Origin: Candidatus Aenigmatarchaeota archaeon
GTDB lineage: Archaea; Aenigmatarchaeota; Aenigmatarchaeia; QMZS01
DNA: 5,853 nt
Assembly: GCA_030620695.1 (NCBI GenBank)
Contig: JAUXEA010000030.1
Span: forward strand, 1 to 5,853
Reading direction: 5' to 3'
The notes under the pieces were generated by a model. That model had not been told where the DNA came from. It did not search any database and saw only the letters and a list, made by a program, of their open reading frames with translations. The position numbers and the translations under genes are program-made. Shown in pieces: positions 13 to 4,753 of this stretch; the first letter of the stretch is position 1, and every line of letters starts with the position of its first letter.

Positions 13-29
13 CCTTTCTTGAATGGCCA

Positions 30-228
30 AAGGAGCAGGACTTAAGAAATTAAGTTATGAGGTCTTTTTTGACTGATGATTTTCCTGAGAAATCCTGTGT
101 GTTAGTCGCTACGAGGGTACGTGTGTCCTTTAGATATAAATATGGACAACGCCTCAATCGAATCTGGTAAATCGAAGATTTACAACTTTTCAACTTACCA
201 GTTGAAAATCCCTTCCCCCGCATTTTTT
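30..228 (+). ncRNA. Candidate structured non-coding RNA of unknown family
   Basis: No credible protein is seen here, but the stretch is dense in stems. GACTTAA at 39-45 pairs with 50-56 around a GAAA tetraloop, with one G-U pair. GACT 71-74 pairs with 104-107, enclosing a stem of 78-84 with 89-94. A long arm joins 113-128 to 144-155: GAGG/CCTC, then CGT/ACG, then TGTCC/GGACA, with small bulges. A perfect 7-bp hairpin with a GAA loop spans 167-183, and a perfect 8-bp hairpin spans 187-208. A pyrimidine tail and T6 follow. The plus strand is preferred because of the TATA-like box before it, the T-run after it, and the G39-U56 pair that would be C-A on the other strand. I could not match it to RNase P RNA, SRP RNA, 5S rRNA or a tRNA. 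The ends are estimates. Confidence 0.4.
223..228 (+). terminator. T6 tract, candidate terminator of the structured RNA
   Basis: A run of six T follows the C-rich segment 210-221 and the 187-208 hairpin. Archaeal RNA polymerase commonly stops at such T-runs. It lies just before the 3' end of the convergent small gene at 253-453. Confidence 0.4.
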
Positions 229-511: not shown

Positions 512-1876
512 TCAAACCCAACTCCCTAACTGCAAAATCTTCCCTTCCTGTAAATGGTCCCCTATTAAATGCAATCCAACAGGCATTCCATTTGATTTTC
601 CGCAGGGGACTGACAAGTGTGGAAATCCGCATAAATTTGGGGCAACAGTTAAAATATCCATTGCATATTGCTGTGCAGGGGAAAGTAATGCAATGTCAGT
701 AAACTTCGGGGCAATAATTGGCATTGTTGGTGCCAGAATACAATCAAATTTTTTAAATTCATTCTTAAATTCTTTTATGATGTGTCCCCTGACTTTTAGA
801 GCCTTCAGATAATATTTATCCCTGTACCCCGCTTTCCTGTAAAAGGTTCCCATCAAAATTCTCCTTTTTACTTCCTCACCAAAATATTCTCCCCTGACTT
901 CTGAAAAGAATTCATTGTAACTTCCTTTAATCTCTTTTGTCATTCCATATCTGATTCCGCAGTATCTTGCCAAGTTTGTGCTTGCCTCGCTCATTGCAAT
1001 TATATAATAACTTGGCAAAGCGAATTTTGTTGATGGCAATGAAATTTCCTCATATTTTGCTCCTTCTCCTTCCAGTTTTTTTATTGCTCTCCAGACTTCT
1101 TTTTTAACTTCTTCGTCAATATTATCAAAATATTCTTTTGGAACACCAATCCTGAATTTTGAAATATCTTTTTTCAGATATTTTGTGTAATCTTCCGACT
1201 TGCGGTTTATTGAAGTTGAGTCCTTACTATCATAGCCTGCAATTTTTGTTAAACCGTGAGCAACTTCAAAACAGGTTTTTGCGATTACTCCTATTTTATC
1301 AAGGGAAGATGCATAATCCACCAGCCCATATCTACTCACCAGCCCATAAGTCGGAGTCAATCCAACAACCCCGCAAAAACTTGCTGGGCAGGAAATAGAA
1401 CCACCTGTTGATTCAGCAATTGCAATATGTGGTAATTTTAAAGCAGATGTTAAACAGGCTGCTCCTCCACTGGAACCACCACAACTTCTTCCTACATCAT
1501 AAGGGTTCTTTGGAATTCCATAAGCGCAGTTTAAACAAAATGTTCCAAAACCAAATTCATCCATTTTTGTTTTCCCGATTATGTACCCAACTTCTTTTAT
1601 TTTTTTTATTGCAGTTGCATCAAAAGGAGGAATATAATTTTCCAGAATTTTTGAGCCTGCAGTTGTTTTTATTCCTTTTGTGCAAATATTATCTTTTACA
1701 GAAATCGGGAGTAGGAAATCTTTATCCCCTTTTTCTTCTTCCAAATATTTTCTTGCGTGCTCTTCAGAAATTGTTATAAAAGGTTTGTATTTCTCCTGAA
1801 TTTTCTTTATCTCACTAAAAGTATTCTCAAAGAGTTTTTCCTTGTCTGGATTCTTTAAATATTCCTTCAAGTCCAT
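512..1876 (-). CDS. gatA: Asp/Glu-tRNA amidotransferase subunit A (GatA)
   Basis: GatA is the glutaminase subunit of GatCAB. It releases ammonia from glutamine, which is passed to GatB to convert Asp-tRNA(Asn), and in some organisms Glu-tRNA(Gln), to the amide form. The 454-residue product carries the amidase-signature triad at the family spacing: Lys61 (PISVKDN), Ser136 (GGSSGG) and nucleophile Ser160 (TGGS). The hallmark stretches CGVVGL-TPTYG (169-178) and SRYGLVDYASSLD (181-193) follow. The C-terminus keeps PHLSVPCG and GLHLIG. The family is usually about 470-490 residues. This copy is shortened before the catalytic core, the usual N-terminal helices being reduced to about 40 residues, and it ends soon after GLHLIG. 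The frame closes with tandem stops TGA-TAA-TGA. The ATG at 1876 follows a TATA-like element at leaderless spacing. No gatC is seen nearby. Confidence 0.96.
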   Translation of the reverse strand: MDLKEYLKNPDKEKLFENTFSEIKKIQEKYKPFITISEEHARKYLEEEKGDKDFLLPISVKDNICTKGIKTTAGSKILENYIPPFDATAIKKIKEVGYIIGKTKMDEFGFGTFCLNCAYGIPKNPYDVGRSCGGSSGGAACLTSALKLPHIAIAESTGGSISCPASFCGVVGLTPTYGLVSRYGLVDYASSLDKIGVIAKTCFEVAHGLTKIAGYDSKDSTSINRKSEDYTKYLKKDISKFRIGVPKEYFDNIDEEVKKEVWRAIKKLEGEGAKYEEISLPSTKFALPSYYIIAMSEASTNLARYCGIRYGMTKEIKGSYNEFFSEVRGEYFGEEVKRRILMGTFYRKAGYRDKYYLKALKVRGHIIKEFKNEFKKFDCILAPTMPIIAPKFTDIALLSPAQQYAMDILTVAPNLCGFPHLSVPCGKSNGMPVGLHLIGDHLQEGKILQLGSWV

Positions 1877-1894
1877 AATTAATTTAAAAACAAA

Positions 1895-1904
1895 CTAAAT
1901 TTAG
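1895..1904 (-). promoter_or_regulatory. Candidate TATA box of gatA
   Basis: The palindrome CTAAATTTAG sits 19-28 bases before the gatA ATG, roughly where box A of a leaderless archaeal gene lies. No Shine-Dalgarno-like purine tract precedes the ATG. It abuts the C-box-like motif of the plus-strand RNA candidate, so divergent transcription from this gap is plausible. Confidence 0.4.
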
Positions 1905-1956
1905 ATGATGATGCCTCCTCTGAGCCTTTGGCTATGATTACTGATGGGCAATCTGA
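1905..1956 (+). ncRNA. Candidate C/D-box guide sRNA
   Basis: Four motifs occur in the archaeal order over 52 nt, the usual length of the class: C box ATGATGA (1905-1911), D' CTGA (1920-1923), C'-like ATGATTA (1934-1940) and D CTGA (1953-1956). The C'-to-D guide is 12 nt (1941-1952), as expected. The C-to-D' guide is only 8 nt, which is short. The D'-C' spacer can form a small hairpin, AGCC-TTT-GGCT (1923-1933). A TATA-like AATTTAAAAA at 1881-1890 lies upstream at workable spacing. Members of the class direct 2'-O-methylation of rRNA or tRNA with L7Ae, Nop5 and fibrillarin. No target was identified. CTGA and TGATG motifs are common, so chance is a real alternative. It could instead be the 5' part of a longer RNA running to about 2054. 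Confidence 0.35.
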
Positions 1957-1959
1957 TGT

Positions 1960-2027
1960 CAGCCTTTATTGGTTAAATCTATCAAAAGGCCGACACCCCA
2001 AACAGGGTTGTTGGCCAATAAAGGTTG
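1960..2027 (+). ncRNA. Structured RNA element: long stem with inner hairpin
   Basis: CCTTTATTGG (1963-1972) and CCAATAAAGG (2015-2024) are perfect inverted repeats. With flanking pairs the stem is 17 bp (1960-1976 with 2011-2027), including G1962-U2025, U1973-G2014 and U1974-G2013. A competing inner hairpin pairs 1988-1995 with 2009-2016 (one G-U) and 1997-1999 with 2005-2007 around an AAACA loop. Those G-U pairs would be C-A or A-C on the minus strand, so the RNA, if made, is plus-strand. It lies between the C/D-like motifs and the tRNA gene and is more GC-rich than its surroundings. I do not recognise a family. Confidence 0.45.
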
Positions 2028-2030
2028 TTT

Positions 2031-2054
2031 CCAAAAGGGATTTTTCCTTTTTGG
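2031..2054 (+). repeat. 10-bp hairpin with TTTT loop upstream of tRNA-Cys
   Basis: CCAAAAGGGA (2031-2040) pairs with TCCTTTTTGG (2045-2054) over ten pairs, one of them G2037-U2048, around a UUUU loop. The 3' arm can instead pair with CCAAAAGGAA at 2066-2075. The T-rich stretch 2041-2052 might end a plus-strand RNA begun near 1905, or the hairpin may be part of the tRNA leader. Confidence 0.5.
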
Positions 2055-2081: not shown

Positions 2082-2181
2082 GCGGAGGTGGCAGAATAGC
2101 TATGCGTCCGGCTGCAGTTAAAGAAAAATAATTCAAAATAGCAGGAACCGGTTCACGGGGGTGCAAATCCCTCCCTCCGCT
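2082..2181 (+). tRNA. tRNA-Cys (anticodon GCA), intron-containing
   Basis: The acceptor stem GCGGAGG (2082-2088) pairs perfectly with CCTCCGC (2174-2180). The discriminator is T2181, the U73 typical of tRNA-Cys, and CCA is not encoded. The T stem pairs 2157-2161 with 2169-2173, with one G-U. After removal of the intron at 2118-2146 the anticodon loop is CTGCAGA, with GCA at 2114-2116, and the stem is CCGG/CCGG with a T-T mismatch at 27-43. The mature length is 71 nt with a 4-nt variable loop, so it is class I. Oddities: the short D loop (about 2095-2101) lacks the usual GG pair, and the T loop reads TGCAAAT, not TTCAAAT. A first-glance tRNA-Leu reading fails because there is no long variable arm. 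Confidence 0.85.
2118..2146 (+). other. tRNA-Cys intron (29 nt, canonical 37/38 position)
   Basis: The exon-intron borders form a bulge-helix-bulge. The central 4-bp helix CTGC/GCAG (2112-2115 with 2141-2144) is flanked by 3-nt bulges AGT (2116-2118) and GAA (2145-2147), and the outer helix is CCGG/CCGG. Cutting after the second base of each bulge, as the archaeal splicing endonuclease does, removes 2118-2146 and restores a normal Cys anticodon loop. The intron is very AT-rich and its inner helix is only about 2 bp, a relaxed form of the motif. Confidence 0.8.
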
Positions 2182-2268: not shown

Positions 2269-2904
2269 ATGAATAATTACGAACAGAGTATTATTAAACT
2301 TGGAGATTTTAAATGTCCTACTGATTATTCCAAACAAGGTGGGGTTCATGATAACATAATTGATGTTTATTGTGCTCATTTATTAGATGTTGCCAGAAAC
2401 CTGTCAGAAAAAAAAGAACAAAAATCAATAATTCCTGAAAACACCTGGGTAGATGAAGAAGAAATAAGCAGATTATCAAAAGAATATTATAATACTCTTA
2501 AAGAGAATAAACTTCCAATAATACTTGCAAAGAAAATTGGATATACTGCAGAATTTTCAGGTGAGTTTCTGGAGGATATTTCTGAAAATGGATATAAAAA
2601 GATAGTTGGTAGAAAATCAGGTGAGATAGATGTTATGTGTATAATACCTATGGAATTGGTTTGCGGACAGCAAAATGGATTAACACAGGAAGATACCTAT
2701 TGTTTATTGGGAGAAATAAAGTCAGTTTACCAACCAGGAACCAGACCTTTTGAACAGGTTTTATCTGCAACTTATGGTTGTATGTACCCACATTTTAAAG
2801 ATCCCTTTAATATAAAAATTATTGATGGTTTTTTAGTTACACCAAACTTAACTGAACGTATACATTCACACCAGACTGACCAGTATACAAAGTATACCAA
2901 ATGA
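2269..2904 (+). CDS. Hypothetical protein with PD-(D/E)XK nuclease-like motifs
   Basis: The product is 211 residues with no signal peptide or membrane segment. I do not recognise the exact family. Residues 118-151 read like the core of a PD-(D/E)XK fold: GEIDVMC with Asp121, a hydrophobic strand, then LLGEIKS with Glu149 and Lys151 (E-x-K). PFEQVLSATYGC (Gln163, Tyr169) follows, resembling the helix after the active site in many such nucleases. The gap from Asp121 to Glu149 is long, about 28 residues, with a Gln-rich insertion. The N-terminal 90 residues are mostly helical and charged. The C-terminus, after a strand at 183-190, ends in a repetitive QYTKYTK. Start ATG 2269 fits the promoter 29 bases upstream. 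It is flanked by tRNA-Cys and faces gatB tail to tail with a 35-base gap. A defence, repair or RNA-processing role is possible but not shown. Confidence 0.8.
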   Translation: MNNYEQSIIKLGDFKCPTDYSKQGGVHDNIIDVYCAHLLDVARNLSEKKEQKSIIPENTWVDEEEISRLSKEYYNTLKENKLPIILAKKIGYTAEFSGEFLEDISENGYKKIVGRKSGEIDVMCIIPMELVCGQQNGLTQEDTYCLLGEIKSVYQPGTRPFEQVLSATYGCMYPHFKDPFNIKIIDGFLVTPNLTERIHSHQTDQYTKYTK

Positions 2905-4681: not shown

Positions 4682-4691
4682 CTATATATAG
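4682..4691. promoter_or_regulatory. Palindromic TATA region between divergent genes
   Basis: CTATATATAG is a perfect palindrome, so it can serve as box A in either direction. On the minus strand it is about 24 bases before the 49-residue gene's ATG, ideal for a leaderless start. On the plus strand transcription would begin near 4712, giving the metalloprotease gene a leader of about 40 bases. No other TATA element lies closer to that gene. Confidence 0.55.
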
Positions 4692-4696
4692 TTCAT

Positions 4697-4713
4697 TCGT
4701 TGCGAAGCAACGA
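4697..4713. repeat. 7-bp perfect hairpin with GAA loop
   Basis: TCGTTGC and GCAACGA flank a GAA triloop, just downstream of the shared TATA palindrome and in the gap before the metalloprotease start. It may be an operator-like palindrome or sit at the 5' end of that transcript. The GAA-loop design also occurs at 167-183, which may be chance. Confidence 0.5.
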
Positions 4714-4753
4714 TGCATCATTCATTCACTTTTCATCAAATTCAATAATATTT

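Follow-up and report, generated by a model that had tools for sequence, protein, structure and literature searches.

Transposition of tRNA introns has been described for the Thermoproteales, where its mechanism is called unknown in the available portions of the reports (PMC4090602, PMC4033280). Snapshots of archaeal tRNA intron insertion events have been asked for (available portion of PMC4033280), and the 48 introns in 46 tRNAs of T. tenax were called a record number (available portion of PMC4731332). It is still an open question by what route introns enter archaeal tRNA genes. Here, we describe a small hairpin repeat from a Candidatus Aenigmatarchaeota archaeon. As far as the accessible accounts of the Thermoproteales go, the two systems are alike in that similar introns occupy canonical and non-canonical sites of different tRNA genes, in that several introns can interrupt one tRNA, and in that the junctions have bulge-helix-bulge (BHB) form. 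They differ in that the Thermoproteales are Crenarchaeota whereas the organism studied here belongs to the DPANN archaea, and in that the same sequence is also found outside tRNAs, including in frame within a protein gene.

Four further systems, each considered from partial sources, share individual features with the repeat. Rickettsial palindromic elements are likewise small palindromic repeats lying in frame in coding genes; they are bacterial, and the likeness noted here is one of description (PMC3733652). REP/RAYT and GTAG/CGTC-tagged palindromes are also 20 to 40 bp long and occur in many copies, whereas no GTAG or CGTC tag was apparent by eye in our repeat and no linked Y1 transposase was found (PMC3733652). 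In the tRNA-Thr of Caldiarchaeum, gain of an intron was ascribed to a mobile element, but that element measures 1.8 kb and codes for a recombinase, unlike the gene-free hairpin of approximately 30 to 70 nt described here (PMC3293823). The omega-RNAs of archaeal IS200/IS605 elements are again short structured RNAs of archaeal mobile elements; no Y1 gene was found in the genome under study, referred to as G000 (PMC12558985). Among open-licence papers, we found no account of the repeat or of tRNA introns in Aenigmarchaeota, and no report joining tRNA intron transposition with palindromic repeats in coding genes. A hairpin repeat that occurs within tRNA introns as well as at sites outside tRNA genes appears to be new. 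To our knowledge, Rickettsial palindromic elements do not occur as tRNA introns.

The DNA analyzed (5,853 nt from the G000 genome, which is 65.6% complete; hereafter, the window) contains between gatA and tRNA-Cys a folded stretch that had been interpreted as an RNA with two competing conformations. We find this stretch to be a copy of a hairpin repeat that is dispersed and apparently mobile. It sits between a C/D-box-like small RNA (sRNA) and tRNA-Cys, in the same orientation as both and not inside the tRNA. The locus comprises the following features.

512 to 1876, minus strand: gatA, the left neighbour (TIGR00132, above cut-off)
1883 to 1891, plus strand: TATA-like TTTAAAAAC, a possible promoter of the C/D sRNA and what lies downstream, proposed from sequence inspection only
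1903 to 1957, plus strand: C/D-box-like sRNA with C box GATGATGAT (1904-1912), D' box CTGA (1920-1923), C' box TATGATT (1933-1939) and D box CTGA (1953-1956)
1958 to 2025, plus strand: hairpin-repeat copy, long-loop form of the GTCAG subfamily (65.9 bits and E 7.1e-15 with covariance model R1, this copy being in the training set; BLAST copies elsewhere)
2041 to 2052, plus strand: T-runs TTTTTCCTTTTT, a possible transcript end, likewise proposed from inspection
2082 to 2117, plus strand: tRNA-Cys(GCA), 5' exon
2118 to 2146, plus strand: tRNA-Cys intron of 29 nt at position 37/38, BHB CTGC-AG^T ... GCAG-GA^A, absent from relatives G006 and G010
2147 to 2181, plus strand: tRNA-Cys(GCA), 3' exon

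An open reading frame of 211 amino acids between tRNA-Cys and gatB (window 2269-2904) had no Pfam or NCBIfam match.

With a probability of roughly 0.78, we read the stretch as a copy of a hairpin repeat, dispersed in two related archaeal genera, which likely propagates as DNA and whose copies in tRNA loops are predicted to be excised from precursor tRNA by the tRNA-splicing endonuclease. The parts of the window copy are given below together with the pairs proposed earlier.

1958 to 1967, plus strand: 5' arm GTCAGCCTTT of the repeat hairpin, identical in 15 of 15 aligned copies
1985 to 1994, plus strand: 3' arm AAAGGCCGAC, pairing with 1958-1967 except for one A-C mismatch (1961/1991)
1995 to 2002, plus strand: tail ACCCCAAA after the hairpin, ending a core of about 30 nt that is also found in a coding gene of relatives
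1988 to 1993, plus strand: GGCCGA, 5' half of the six inner pairs of the 3' hairpin, pairing with 2011-2016
2011 to 2016, plus strand: TTGGCC, the partner of 1988-1993 (87 of 89 cells paired in 15 copies)
1960 to 2027, plus strand: region of the 17-bp stem of the original prediction, whose pairs can form here and whose loop half is missing in 12 of 15 copies

The common unit consists of GTCAGCCTTT-loop-AAAGGCCGAC followed by ACCCCAAA, mostly with a AGGAAATTGGTTAATAAAG-like stretch behind. The window copy has a loop of 17 nt; in 12 of the 15 copies the loop measures 3 to 4 nt. Because 1988-1993 overlaps the 3' arm, the repeat hairpin and the 3' hairpin are mutually exclusive. Related subfamilies have the arms TGAGCC/GGCTCA, TAAGCC/GGCTTA, or CGAGCC/GGCTCG and the tail AGCCAAA, and between subfamilies the hairpin arms covary at two outer pairs. 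In 28 distinct copies, picked by inner arm and tail with the outer arm uninspected, pairing at the second outer position holds in 22 (on average 9.7 and at most 19 in shuffles), with C-G, G-C, and A-T all represented, and at the third position it holds in all 28 (at most 26 in shuffles); since these copies are related, the shuffles overstate the significance of the covariation. The first outer pair, A-T in 16 copies and A-C in 12, was no better than shuffles, and within the GTCAG subfamily the arms are near-invariant and do not covary. As in REP sequences, a short imperfect palindrome is present in many copies (29 model matches; hairpin with a conserved mismatch). With regard to MITEs, the arms are the inverted repeats of a single hairpin, and no clear target-site duplication was seen in an inspection by eye of the protein-gene and tRNA sites described below.

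A DNA search of G000 with positions 1900-2200 returned eight BLAST matches including the query itself, and the seven further places in the genome all matched it within 1955-2025. Of 17 listed copies, 15 went into a covariance model; the other two were short coding copies. The model gave at least 29 matches at E<=0.01 in this genome, where 150 of 567 first-look candidates were scored and not all matches were read individually. With 150 candidates scored per genome, 10 of the 11 genomes in the order had matches; those of G005 were all weak, and G001 had none. Under stricter filters (E<=1e-4), matches were confined to 9 of 156 genomes of the phylum and 2 of 104 genera. A 62-nt copy used as BLAST query matched 8 of 11 family genomes, with no match in G004, G001, or G002. 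An exact 20-mer scan of a named genome collection recovered three Aenigmarchaeota/Aenigmatarchaeota records, which likely represent the same contigs as in G010, G008, and G007 and are not independent finds, and one match in Hoyosella (L046), which was dropped as due to chance. Rfam matched nothing in the three named records at E 0.05, so that the interrupted tRNA-Val in L045 was missed as well. The range of the repeat seen so far is limited to two genera of small-genome Aenigmarchaeota (DPANN) that are close relatives.

All pairs of the two conformations proposed originally, 17 between 1960-1976 and 2011-2027 and 11 between 1988-1999 and 2005-2016, can form. The proposed competition is uneven, however. 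With RNA energies the 17-bp state reaches -18.6 kcal/mol, whereas the 3' hairpin together with the outer 11 bp reaches -28.0 kcal/mol, close to the minimum of -28.6, so that the state containing the 3' hairpin should dominate. The plus-strand fold has a z score of -4.49, equalled by none of 200 shuffles (-2.80 with longer flanks), and the minus-strand fold one of -2.05, equalled by 6 of 200. Enrichment in GC was borne out (0.44 versus 0.33 and 0.28 in the flanks), and the downstream tRNA-Cys is real (2082-2181, Rfam 39.9 bits, with its 29-nt intron). The stretch also matches no known family, as had been stated: no Rfam family overlapped 1960-2027 at E values up to 5, and no gathering score was reached there. 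The placement of G-U pairs on the plus strand had been taken as a sign of a transcribed RNA. This holds for the pairs listed at the time, but the stem common to the repeat has a plus-strand A-C mismatch in 15 of 15 copies, equivalent to G-U on the minus strand. Polarity was rejected as proof of RNA, since over the 15 copies neither strand folds better than the other (mean z, -3.11 and -3.14).

Among the 15 copies, the six inner pairs of the 3' hairpin (GGCC[G/A]A with TTGG[TC][TC]) show one-sided changes, G-C/G-U and G-U/A-U, and pairing of the whole 3' hairpin was not above shuffles. The persistence of these six pairs means that the repeat may have a role as plus-strand RNA; it exceeds the needs of a purely DNA-level element and counts against the mobile-DNA reading. 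It would also suit a regulatory or guide RNA of the locus with two conformations, as originally envisaged, and so would the strong plus-strand fold and the sense orientation. We nevertheless regard such an RNA as very improbable, given that the site is empty in G004 and holds different inserts in other relatives, that neither structure of the original prediction shows covariation above shuffles within the GTCAG subfamily, and that the loop half of the long stem is missing from 12 of the 15 copies. No compensatory changes were found in this stem across the 15 copies. A locus-specific RNA or riboswitch was likewise rejected in view of the empty site and the missing covariation. Thus, a structured stretch with no Rfam family and in sense orientation with the tRNA is retained from the original interpretation, and an RNA gene belonging to the locus is not.

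The C/D-like sRNA followed by tRNA-Cys was found in five of eight relatives of the same genus. C, C', and D boxes are present in all six genomes compared and the D' box in four; it is missing in G006 and G010, where a hairpin interrupts the sRNA. Matches of the sRNA to Rfam are weak (sR18, 20.3 with a cut-off of 45; sR2, 18.5 with a cut-off of 42). A guide-like TGATGGGCAAT precedes the D box in the six genomes, with one base different in G004. The gap behind the sRNA is not conserved; this and the missing covariation are two outcomes that the original prediction had itself named as refuting it. The distance from D box to tRNA is 12 nt in G004, 65 nt in G006 and G010, 125 nt in the window, 131 nt in G007, and 253 nt in G005, with differing contents. 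The spacer of G004 is an empty site; that of G007 holds a GTCAGAC-type copy beginning at the same base after GGGCAATCTGAT; those of G006 and G010 contain a different hairpin; and the longer insert of G005 may, as judged by eye, be a decayed form of the G007 insert. This spacer is therefore an insertion site with fast turnover.

The window copy begins 1 nt past the D box in sense orientation, as in G007. Together with the hairpin inside the sRNA of G006 and G010, this might point to an intron within a joint C/D sRNA-tRNA transcript that is spliced at a BHB. This explanation appears highly improbable, as inspection by eye revealed no convincing BHB with the flanks and a downstream sRNA exon is not apparent. 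In the reading preferred here, the window copy would be co-transcribed with the C/D sRNA and trimmed away, and it would have no local function.

All 20 tRNA genes mapped in the 65.6%-complete G000 genome are interrupted, by at least 32 introns (29 in 19 genes and 3 in tRNA-Leu(TAA)) located at 37/38, 59/60, 53/54, in the D loop, and elsewhere. Of the Rfam tRNA matches in this genome, the highest-scoring one is itself an interrupted gene; it is possible that intact tRNA genes lie in the missing part. The count of 20 leaves out a tRNA-like gene on L032, tRNA-Trp, whose boundaries are unsettled, and a match on L036. The L032 gene (111-217, reverse) has the anticodon GGC and unpaired acceptor arms and is perhaps split or decayed; the weak L036 match (1501-1580) has a fitting acceptor and T arm and an odd middle, and lies beside another structured stretch. 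TTAT or a similar sequence stands directly 5' of many of the G000 tRNA genes inspected and is perhaps an initiator giving very short leaders. One interrupted gene lies within the window.

25 to 222, plus strand: tRNA-Leu(TAA), exons 25-46, 92-118, 158-162 and 209-222, introns 47-91, 119-157 and 163-208, boundaries set by hand

The 5' part of this gene is off the contig or beyond a further intron, and all three junctions have 4/4 BHB pairs. It was detected by neither ARAGORN nor Rfam, and ARAGORN reported zero tRNAs in the window. When exons were joined, ARAGORN recognized 18 of 19 genes as tRNA, the sole miss being a Pro gene that runs off its contig; unspliced, 1 of 18 (a Leu gene among the 19 being left out) was recognized at default settings and 4 of 18 with introns allowed. 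Since default ARAGORN misses 17 of 18 interrupted genes, such genomes would look tRNA-poor.

The central helix of the BHB, flanked by 3-nt bulges in the canonical motif, has 4/4 pairs in 14 of 29 introns and at least 3 pairs in 24, against at most 1 and 10, respectively, in registers slid by -8 to +2. All exon-intron boundaries were set by hand, and three D-loop boundaries were revised with the BHB in mind and are thus not independent; before revision of these and of Arg(CCT) and Ile(TAT), full BHBs numbered 11 of 29. The helix is incomplete in 15 introns, 5 of them with 2 pairs or fewer, which counts against the splicing reading. Copies of the repeat make up part or all of tRNA introns: six introns were flagged with a GTCAG-type copy and one with the related GCAACCC type, and most others have other hairpins or none that was classified. 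Among the seven repeat-bearing introns, five have a full BHB, one has 3 pairs, and one has 2, and a both-strand pattern search found all seven copies in sense to their tRNA. In the T arms of L015 and L041, mapping by hand placed two introns in one T loop; as the second BHB can form only after the first intron is removed, splicing there is possibly sequential.

To make proteins, cells would have to excise the repeat from each interrupted tRNA. We propose that the tRNA-splicing endonuclease would cut the tRNA-loop copies from precursor tRNA and that copies would persist in tRNA loops only where the junction can form a BHB. The tRNA-intron endonuclease domain PF01974 is present in 10 of 11 genomes, with one match each. 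In the G000 enzyme a charged N-terminal tail precedes the two Pfam domains, both of which are present. The nearest solved relative of this enzyme by sequence is chain 1a79, which we take to be M. jannaschii EndA; the second nearest is presumably a Nanoarchaeum enzyme. The M. jannaschii EndA type is credited with stricter substrates, which weighs against the splicing reading.

Several tRNA sites are occupied in one genome and uninterrupted in another. For this comparison clear rows were used, as low-score rows were often spurious or cross-isoacceptor (Glu of G010 reads CTC, and several Gly rows represent Asp). Uninterrupted genes were seen for Cys in G006 and G010 and for Ile(GAT) in G004, G005, and G010 (99% identical in G010). 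Gly(GCC), which carries an 85-nt intron in G000, is likewise uninterrupted in G004 and G005. The Gly(GCC) gene of G007 has a 32-nt insert at another site, beginning with GTCAGC; this insert and that in Cys of G007 start repeat-like without the full tail and were not counted as copies. G001 and G002, which represent sister genera, have long, probably interrupted tRNA matches, as judged by Rfam match length, and intron richness therefore seems older than the repeat. In this genus, insertions can be set beside empty sites in near relatives, one sequence occurs within tRNAs as well as elsewhere, and 20 tRNA genes hold at least 32 introns, so that gain, swap, and loss of introns are directly traceable.

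It is conceivable that the intron itself spreads, either by reverse splicing of excised or circular RNA or by recombination from tRNA to tRNA, and that copies outside tRNAs are by-products. In tRNA-Asn and tRNA-Val(CAC) of G000 the GTCAG copy begins at the first intron base, as does a GTCAG copy in the Val(CAC) T loop of G010, where G000 has a TAAGCC one. In addition, Lys(CTT), Thr(CGT) (identity by ARAGORN), and Pro(TGG) share closely similar D-loop introns of 137 to 154 nt, and the tRNA-Asn genes of five relatives are interrupted at the matching position by introns that hold other hairpins. These observations agree with a mobile intron, which we still consider unlikely: a coding gene contains the 30-nt core without splice ends, copies that by eye seem nested inside one another need insertion at the DNA level, and the repeat in Arg(CCT) begins only at the second base of the intron, where three relatives have a 40-nt intron without repeat, as if it had entered an existing intron.

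The coding copy is found in G007 and G008, where the 30-nt core lies in frame within a glycerol-1-phosphate dehydrogenase (G1PDH)-like gene and contributes QPLEKADTPK or QFLEKADTPK. The best NCBIfam match of this protein was below its cut-off. In an alignment of the G1PDH-like proteins of G000, G004, G005, G007, and G008, from which the orthologues found in G006, G009, and G010 were left out, the core is absent from the three remaining members. As an in-frame core is thus missing from three orthologues, the repeat appears to move as DNA. The inserts of G007 and G008 probably reflect one event, since these genomes are close relatives. A related stretch was noted within an open frame of 551 amino acids on L020.

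This small hairpin element would be moved by a putative hairpin-recognizing transposase. Its conserved-mismatch hairpin and small size resemble REP and PATE ends, and Y1 transposase matches occur in 5 of 11 genomes, which together raise the possibility that a Y1 HUH transposase mobilizes the repeat as a non-autonomous element of the IS200/IS605 type (PATE or REP). We judge this distinctly unlikely, as G000, which is 65.6% complete and yields the most model matches, has no Y1 match, as none of the 6 Y1 loci read (of 15) carries or adjoins a copy by the patterns used, and as no fixed tetranucleotide was seen by eye before the hairpin. No link of Y1 transposase to the repeat being found, it was rejected as the mobilizer, and the lack of such a link also counts against the mobile-DNA reading. 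A more far-reaching version of the mobile-DNA reading, to which we give slightly less than an even chance, is that the hairpin repeat is at once a mobile DNA element and a ready-made tRNA intron, entering tRNA loops, spacers, and coding genes, with splicing neutralizing the insertions in tRNAs. If true, it would supply the missing vehicle for intron gain in archaeal tRNAs and would account for the interruption of all readable tRNA genes in one genome.

A second palindrome family was noticed by eye, of the form AAACACTC...hairpin...GGTGCATC. It occurs at 4690-4730 of the window and in L014, L016, L017, and L033, and it is often nested in the first.
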